Virus record (IMG/VR): IMGVR_UViG_3300020020_000008
Coordinates: 1-46,140 of that record
Length of the DNA stretch: 46,140 nucleotides
Origin: a virus
Direction: 5' to 3' (one strand)
The notes under the pieces were generated by a model. That model made no database searches. It saw nothing but the letters and a program-made list of their open reading frames with translations, and was not told the DNA's origin. The translations under genes and the position numbers were made by a program. This document shows positions 1,078-1,644 of the stretch, in pieces (the stretch's first letter is position 1; every line of letters begins with the position of its first letter).

Positions 1078-1113
1078 GCCGGGATGGTGGAATAGGCAGA
1101 CACTACGGAGACT
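1078..1113 (+). tRNA. 5' half of an interrupted tRNA-Leu-like gene
   Basis: GCCGGGA (1078-1084) is a seven-base acceptor strand, followed by TG and a D-arm with stem GTG (1087-1089)/CAC (1101-1103). The loop GAATAGGCAGA closely resembles bacterial tRNA-Leu. The partner acceptor strand TCCCGGC and a perfect T-arm are found only at 1620-1644, about 0.5 kb away. No convincing anticodon arm can be built: the expected anticodon stem is replaced by the GGAG/ATG start region of the inserted HNH reading frame. It is either an intron-split gene or a tRNA broken by insertion. Confidence 0.6.
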
Positions 1114-1118
1114 ATACA

Positions 1119-1616
1119 ATGAGTGAAAAACCCCCCGTATCCCAACTGGCAGAGGAAACTGCCTTAAAAGCAGTAGAGTATGAGTTCGAATCTCATCGGG
1201 GGGACCATCCTATCTATGGTTCTATGGGATGGAAAGTCTACGGTCCATATCAGAGTATTACAGACTTGAGACGTAGAGTAGTGGCTAGGCGTGATTTCGA
1301 GCAGGTCACTATATCCTATCCGCGCTTCATGATGGAATGTAAACTCAAGAGGTTACTTCTGCCTACTGAGGAAGTCCATCATAAGAATGAGATAGAGTTC
1401 GATGACCGTCTGGACAACTATGAAGTGATTAATTCGACTGAACATCGACAGAATCACAATACCAAGTTTCCCGAACGGTTTGTATGTCCTGTATGTGATA
1501 CTACATTCTTTCTTGAGGGTACACGTCTCTCAACTTACAAGAGCAATAAGAAGCGACGACCTGGTATGAAAGGTCCATACTGTAGCCGAAGCTGTAGCGG
1601 CAAAGTCAATAACTAG
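1119..1616 (+). CDS. HNH homing endonuclease (165 aa from 1119, or 131 aa from 1224)
   Basis: The central part has the HNH signature: E-E-V-H-H-K-N, then an Asn in NYEVINSTEH, then the final H of RQNHN. A C-terminal CxxC...CxxxC zinc finger follows (CPVC, YCSRSC). ATG 1119 has a good ribosome site, GGAG at 1107-1110, almost the same as that of the gene at 605. However, codons 5-30 from this start are entirely an intact tRNA (1131-1207). If the tRNA is only a passenger, the in-frame ATG at 1224 is the likelier start, though it lacks a clear ribosome site. The frame ends at the edge of the 3' tRNA half. It is probably a mobile nuclease that invaded the tRNA locus. Confidence 0.75.
   Translation: MSEKPPVSQLAEETALKAVEYEFESHRGDHPIYGSMGWKVYGPYQSITDLRRRVVARRDFEQVTISYPRFMMECKLKRLLLPTEEVHHKNEIEFDDRLDNYEVINSTEHRQNHNTKFPERFVCPVCDTTFFLEGTRLSTYKSNKKRRPGMKGPYCSRSCSGKVNN
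1131..1207 (+). tRNA. tRNA with UAA anticodon (Leu by codon), CCA encoded
   Basis: A complete cloverleaf. Acceptor CCCCCCG/CGGGGGG (1131-1137/1197-1203) is followed by discriminator A and encoded CCA (1205-1207). The D-stem is TCC/GGA. The anticodon stem ACTGC/GCAGT (1158-1162/1170-1174) closes loop CTTAAAA, giving anticodon TAA. The variable loop is only five bases. The T-arm is ATGAG/CTCAT with loop TTCGAAT. UAA would read UUA leucine codons, but the short variable loop is unlike the long arm of bacterial tRNA-Leu, so charging identity is uncertain. The tRNA lies in frame inside the HNH reading frame. Confidence 0.9.
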
Positions 1617-1644
1617 CATGTGGGTTCGACTCCCACTCCCGGCA
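1617..1644 (+). tRNA. 3' half of the interrupted tRNA-Leu-like gene
   Basis: The T-stem is GTGGG (1620-1624)/CCCAC (1632-1636) with loop TTCGACT. TCCCGGC (1637-1643) follows, fully complementary to 1078-1084, then discriminator A. CCA is not encoded. Just upstream, inside the end of the HNH frame, AGT-CAATA-ACT could be the remains of a leucine-type variable arm. No anticodon-stem partner for the 5' half was found. Confidence 0.6.

Follow-up and report, generated by a model that had tools for sequence, protein, structure and literature searches.

Homing endonucleases must spare the gene that they invade, which introns and inteins manage by splicing. How, then, does an HNH endonuclease reading frame come to lie between the two halves of one leucine tRNA gene while holding a second leucine tRNA within its own codons, and what becomes of the tRNA that was interrupted? 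The question is raised by positions 1078 to 1644 of a 46,140-nt viral sequence (IMG/VR record IMGVR_UViG_3300020020_000008, analysed over its whole length and hereafter called the window), in which all features located below are on the plus strand. The 5' half of the outer tRNA (1078-1109, GCCGGGATGGTGGAATAGGCAGACACTACGGA), a class II tRNA-Leu(UAA), comprises the acceptor strand, the D-arm and the 5' strand of the anticodon stem (ACGGA), and shares about 91% identity with the tRNA of the related phage locus L027 in 32 aligned columns, with a 26-nt match to that of L023. The 3' half (1615-1644, AGCATGTGGGTTCGACTCCCACTCCCGGCA) retains the last part of the variable arm (AGCAT), the T-arm, the acceptor strand and the discriminator A, and is identical at 30 of 30 positions to the last 30 nt of the intact tRNAs of L008 and L027. 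Comparison with the intact tRNAs of L008, L023 and L027 shows that an insert of 505 nt (1110-1614) stands where these have the anticodon loop, the 3' strand of the anticodon stem and the greater part of the variable arm. The first-pass annotation had described leucine-type halves around the reading frame with acceptors matching at all seven positions, and the intact tRNA-Leu(UAA) genes of L008 and L027 bear this out, the strands GCCGGGA (1078-1084) and TCCCGGC (1637-1643) forming 7/7 Watson-Crick pairs. It had also found no anticodon arm in the outer tRNA, which holds for the loop and for the 3' strand of the stem (TCCGT, the partner of the remaining strand, is absent between 1078 and 1644) but not for the 5' strand ACGGA, which is retained. 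Joining the halves of the window thus does not give the full anticodon arm that is the criterion for split or permuted tRNAs of archaea and algae.

Two scans with the neighbouring genes gathered 85 loci of related phages, 11 of which carry a tRNA in the DNA examined, in every case Leu(UAA) and never with another anticodon. L008, L023 and L027 each have an intact class II (long-arm) tRNA-Leu(UAA) within this gene neighbourhood, and since the neighbourhood is shared with L008 and L027, the outer halves are, by comparison, a single tRNA gene that was split and partly deleted by the insert. The upstream flanking gene (820-1071, 83 aa) has a homologue upstream of the intact tRNA of L008, and the downstream one (1826-2053) has an L008 homologue that begins about 25 nt 3' of that tRNA, with 94.7% amino acid identity. 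The HNH gene is optional, the tRNA being uninterrupted at the same site in L008 and L027, and the comparison with phages lacking the insert leads back to a single intact gene and not to two unrelated sequences. A metagenomic misassembly, by which two tRNA loci would have been fused, might be suspected in a window that represents one virus record; the coherent reading frame across the insert, the synteny of both flanks with L008 and the recurrence of the same architecture in other contigs make it extremely improbable.

The inner tRNA is reported by ARAGORN as tRNA-Leu(taa) at 1131-1207 (77 nt) and is the only tRNA found in the whole window; the covariance-model scan proposed at first pass likewise detects it (Rfam RF00005, 59 bits, E 2.4e-10). 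It folds into a cloverleaf with a UAA anticodon, an encoded CCA and a 5-nt variable loop, that is, the short variable arm of class I, and its earlier description as perfect has to be softened to near-perfect, one pair of the D-stem being non-standard. A class I shape is unusual in bacterial tRNA-Leu. Nevertheless, class I tRNA-Leu(UAA) recurs in related phages, in the same region of L021, L037 and L077, the L037 copy showing 87% identity with the inner tRNA across 60 nt; a search of cultured-phage DNA gave matches limited to relatives of the inner tRNA. The two classes of tRNA-Leu(UAA) therefore appear, from this distribution, to be interchangeable in the phage clade of the window, and since related phages carry either class in this region, the inner one plausibly suffices and, if charged by LeuRS, would restore UUA decoding. 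The earlier suggestion that an insertion replaced one leucine tRNA with another thus agrees with the relatives on both counts, which hold syntenic intact versions of the outer tRNA (L008, L027) and the inner type (L037, L021, L077).

The inner tRNA occupies, as first noticed, codons 5-30, in frame, of an open reading frame of 165 aa (1119-1616, ATG start, TAG stop) that matches PHROG HNH families (E 4.7e-12). Its putative ribosome site, also recognised at the outset, is a GGAG at 1107-1110 that together with its spacer extends to 1118, and similar Shine-Dalgarno motifs precede 10 of 11 reference genes as against 8.6% of other ATGs. The GGA of this motif consists of bases of the outer 5' half, and the AG of the stop codon (1614-1616) is common to the outer 3' half. 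No ribosome site is seen in the sequence before Met36 (1224), and translation is likely to start at Met1. The conserved domain, an HNH motif with a four-cysteine finger, spans residues 36-165 (1224-1613) according to the family alignment, the profile match and the pLDDT values, which are mostly above 80 in the domain and about 50 in residues 1-30. Conservation in the alignment begins at KVYGPY, directly after Met36, and residues 36-165 are probably the ancestral full-length protein. As the conserved sequence starts only there, the N-terminus encoded by the tRNA contains no conserved domain and the in-frame embedding is not remarkable by itself; the idea of a special device is unneeded for a protein whose conserved part begins 3' of the tRNA. 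Long N-terminal extensions are present in the family alignment only in the window and in L112 (1363-1959), a second case of a tRNA within the reading frame, where a tRNA-Leu(UAG) fills codons 13-40 of the HNH gene and no start codon occurs from the tRNA to the HNH domain. In the window protein the first catalytic histidine and the asparagine are conserved in the alignment, the histidine standing in an HH rather than the usual DH pair. The family profile scores it at 161 bits, the window being one of the rows of that profile, and a match to Pfam HNH_3 stays below the Pfam cutoff. The resemblance to I-HmuI is weak both by PDB profile (E 0.0056) and by fold search (rank 6, E 0.97), and a single-protein search of IMG/VR gave no close relatives, those of the family having surfaced through alignments. 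Processing by RNase P at 1131 would sever the nuclease mRNA from its start codon, and because of this detachment one transcript could yield either the tRNA or the nuclease, never both.

Is the outer tRNA still made? The first reading had considered a novel intron-like element with a tRNA cargo, which would require that the insert be spliced, and the fully paired acceptor strands of the window could be taken in its favor. A covariance search for a group I intron (RF00028) gave no match in the window at E values up to 5, no Rfam RNA other than the tRNA was detected, and outside the reading frame and the tRNA the insert leaves no space for a ribozyme. Among 12,834 joins of the outer halves, none produced a UAA tRNA, and the 320 tRNA matches from real joins are fewer than the 364-716 obtained with shuffled inserts. 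The outer tRNA of the window is dead, given that the insert contains no group I intron and that a UAA tRNA is not recovered at any junction. These results, with the loss of the anticodon loop and the 3' anticodon stem, make a spliced element that still delivers the outer tRNA very unlikely. The intron idea is still relevant, for HNH relatives of the window protein do occupy group I introns inside tRNA-Leu(UAA) genes.

Relatives of the window HNH in cultured phages lie mostly within tRNA clusters. In one scan, full-length members of the family were mostly beside, overlapping or inside tRNAs, and among more than 50 HNHs of other families tRNA neighbours were almost absent. A tree places the window in a clade (support 97/90) of which 17 of 19 members are found at tRNA-Leu, most other members being at Arg, Ser, Thr or Met tRNAs; the exact position of the window is unsure, because its HNH forms a long branch. 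With further loci added, 14 of them from a later profile search of genome contigs, 99 non-redundant family loci were sorted by arrangement (ARRANGEMENTS). In arrangement (i) the HNH gene is carried in a group I intron inside tRNA-Leu(UAA); in arrangement (ii), with 48 loci and 38 occurrences of tRNA-Leu(UAA), it stands beside or overlaps an intact tRNA; in arrangement (iii) it is nested, together with a second tRNA-Leu, in a split tRNA. About 29 of the 99 loci have no recognised tRNA, some of them clearly belonging to other contexts. The intron-borne members use a single site, CTT|AAAA in the anticodon loop, near the break at 31/32 in the window, and in-silico splicing at this site gave a complete tRNA-Leu(UAA) for six loci. 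Group I matches in Rfam were obtained for L232 (64.8 bits), L331 (58.9 bits), L282, L207, L357, L245, L271 and L113, and weakly for L103, most of them below the gathering score of 50.

Several features of individual loci may be recorded here. HNH-bearing group I introns or intron-like inserts in tRNA-Leu(UAA) were seen at 13 loci (L101, L103, L106, L107, L110, L113, L207, L232, L245, L268, L271, L282 and L357), lying at or near CTT|AAAA, with nearly all of them on viral contigs. In L331 and L336 an orphan 5' half of a tRNA-Leu is followed by the HNH gene and then by a tRNA-Leu with a group I intron that has no HNH, an arrangement that looks like collaborative homing. Orphan tRNA 5' halves also lie directly upstream of HNH genes in L092, L094, L121, L187 and L191, where the D-arm or anticodon stem, being rich in purines, seems to act as the Shine-Dalgarno sequence. 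In L091 (1-571) and L092 (1480-2022) the stop codon of the HNH gene is the UAA anticodon of an overlapping tRNA-Leu, and tRNA processing would therefore strip the nuclease mRNA of its stop. L121, a viral contig, has an above-threshold Rfam match to permuted tmRNA at 2846-2996 (RF04321, 50.8 bits), and next to the HNH genes of L097 and L187 there is a tRNA-Arg(UCU)-like sequence with a good acceptor and T-arm and no recognisable D-arm.

The nested arrangement extends beyond the window to about six other viral lineages (L200, L222/L227/L236, L243, L260, L324 and L344), and no group I match was obtained in the nested loci tested. Matching outer acceptors occur at 17 loci, counting arrangements (i) and (iii) together, as against a mean of 0.35 and a maximum of 2 matching loci when halves were re-paired between loci as a chance expectation. 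These figures bear on the view that the locus is an accident of recombination or decay, an HNH gene and a tRNA having been placed in an older tRNA gene by illegitimate recombination with no meaning for rescue or homing. Phage tRNA clusters are indeed prone to recombination, the 5' junction of the window has a GGA microhomology, and the exact arrangement of the window is known as a single copy; nevertheless, such an accident seems unlikely when several independent nested cases fall in one HNH family associated with tRNA-Leu and the matching halves exceed the chance expectation as described.

The two tRNAs of the nested units belong to opposite classes in five of the six lineages that could be assigned (the window, L200, the L222 type, L243 and L260), the outer class being judged by the D-arm alone in a small sample of lineages. 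Such opposition is what one would predict for a carried copy that has to evade the enzyme and avoid recombination with the flanking halves. L324, the exception, weakens the stronger proposal that the two tRNAs never share a class. A nested unit common to three contigs (L222, L227 and L236) covers approximately positions 1035-1637. L227 and L236 have it in common precisely from the first base of the outer tRNA to the CCA, beyond which their flanks are unrelated, and this would be anticipated if the unit is mobile. At the outer acceptor pair 6-67, L222 has A-T, L227 T-A and L236 G-C, a difference that fits either homing into alleles that vary in their acceptors or compensatory change. Retained pairing of this kind might again speak for splicing, as might L243, whose outer halves still include a complete anticodon arm and can be joined into a tRNA-Leu(UAA); the pattern of the L222 type can also arise by homing into alleles with different acceptors. 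The same two hints have led us to consider that the nested units form a class of mobile elements that compensate for their own damage and in which both tRNAs matter, the outer halves pairing and being processed or joined so that the unit would switch between tRNA maturation and nuclease expression, and this we regard as quite improbable.

A parallel from a cultured phage is found in Aeromonas phage P19 (OM339718; L190, 809-1400), in which an HNH of the same family interrupts a tRNA-Met at the 34/35 boundary, the stop codon of the HNH gene being T36-A37-A38 of the tRNA. In silico, the joined halves give tRNA-Met(CAT), and the relatives G2 and AS-zj have an intact tRNA-Met at the split site of P19. 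No match to a group I intron was found at this locus, where there is no room for a ribozyme, and another tRNA with a CAT anticodon is located downstream.

Taking together the split gene, its intact relatives, the absence of an intron, the replacement tRNA with the same anticodon, the link between the family and tRNA-Leu, and the recurrence of the arrangement, we consider it probable that the locus is a cassette in which an HNH homing endonuclease is paired with a replacement tRNA, in effect a natural counterpart of cleave-and-rescue elements. A freestanding cassette formed by a tRNA-Leu(UAA) and the HNH gene would have entered the tRNA-Leu(UAA) gene of the phage itself at its anticodon region and broken that gene irreversibly. 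Any tRNA-Leu(UAA) gene without the cassette would be cut by the endonuclease near its anticodon, and repair templated by a cassette-bearing copy would spread the cassette. The carried tRNA, which would also read UUA and belongs to the other structural class, may replace the lost one, and it would be neither recognised by the enzyme nor similar enough for recombination with the halves on either side of it. Those outer halves would be relics that now form part of the ribosome site and of the stop codon of the nuclease. Another possibility, which we hold more tentatively, is that the cassette is kept mainly for the benefit of its tRNA, in codon supply or in escape from tRNA-cutting defences, with the HNH as a domesticated hitchhiker. 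UUA is in fact the most used Leu codon of the window (25.8% of Leu codons), and cooperation of SegB and tRNAs in T6 (PMC13096335) lends this some plausibility, whereas the inner anticodon loop, CTTAAAA, is the ordinary one among these tRNAs. This benefit is compatible with the replacement cassette rather than opposed to it.

SegB of T4 and T6, a freestanding homing endonuclease whose cuts fall within tRNA sequences, which mobilises segments of tRNA genes, and for which the role of domesticated hitchhiker was proposed in T6 (PMC13096335), resembles the window cassette in being a freestanding homing nuclease that adjoins tRNA genes. It differs in being of the GIY-YIG and not the HNH type and in having no preference for a tRNA isotype (PMC13096335), and, unlike the window nuclease, it is not described inside a split tRNA with a replacement of the same anticodon. 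T5 likewise has HNH homing endonucleases (F-TflI, II and IV) within its tRNA gene region (Akulenko 2004, cited in PMC3326045), set apart from the window in that the literature consulted describes for them no preference for tRNA-Leu and no split or carried tRNA. The group I introns that interrupt tRNA-Leu(UAA) in cyanobacteria and plastids (reviewed in PMC3984707) occupy the same gene and the same region of the anticodon loop, and HNH relatives occur in such introns in viral contigs; in contrast, the window has no ribozyme, and its outer tRNA is lost and replaced, not spliced. The same 2014 review places every phage intron observed up to that time in a protein-coding gene (PMC3984707), and those in phage tRNA genes, which it held to be unseen, are now documented. 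F-CphI, a freestanding nuclease from which the genome encoding it is shielded by an altered target (PMC6083498), exemplifies the collaborative homing that L331 and L336 resemble. There it is an intron that protects, whereas in the window protection would come from a tRNA of different class.

The HNH family thus shows three solutions to the need to spare the invaded gene, namely splicing by way of group I introns, residence beside an intact tRNA, and breaking the tRNA while bringing a different copy, the third being found in the window and in several other lineages. A homing nuclease with a replacement tRNA inside a broken tRNA was found nowhere described in the literature searched, subscription papers and preprints lying outside the search. 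In synthetic cleave-and-rescue drives, which are engineered and CRISPR-based, a nuclease destroys a useful gene and the element carries a recoded copy of it. The window element, in contrast, is natural, its rescue is a tRNA, and its drive behavior is putative. If cleavage and rescue both hold true, it would be a natural analogue of those drives, and it would help to explain the switching of tRNA-Leu(UAA) between classes in the phage clade to which the window belongs.
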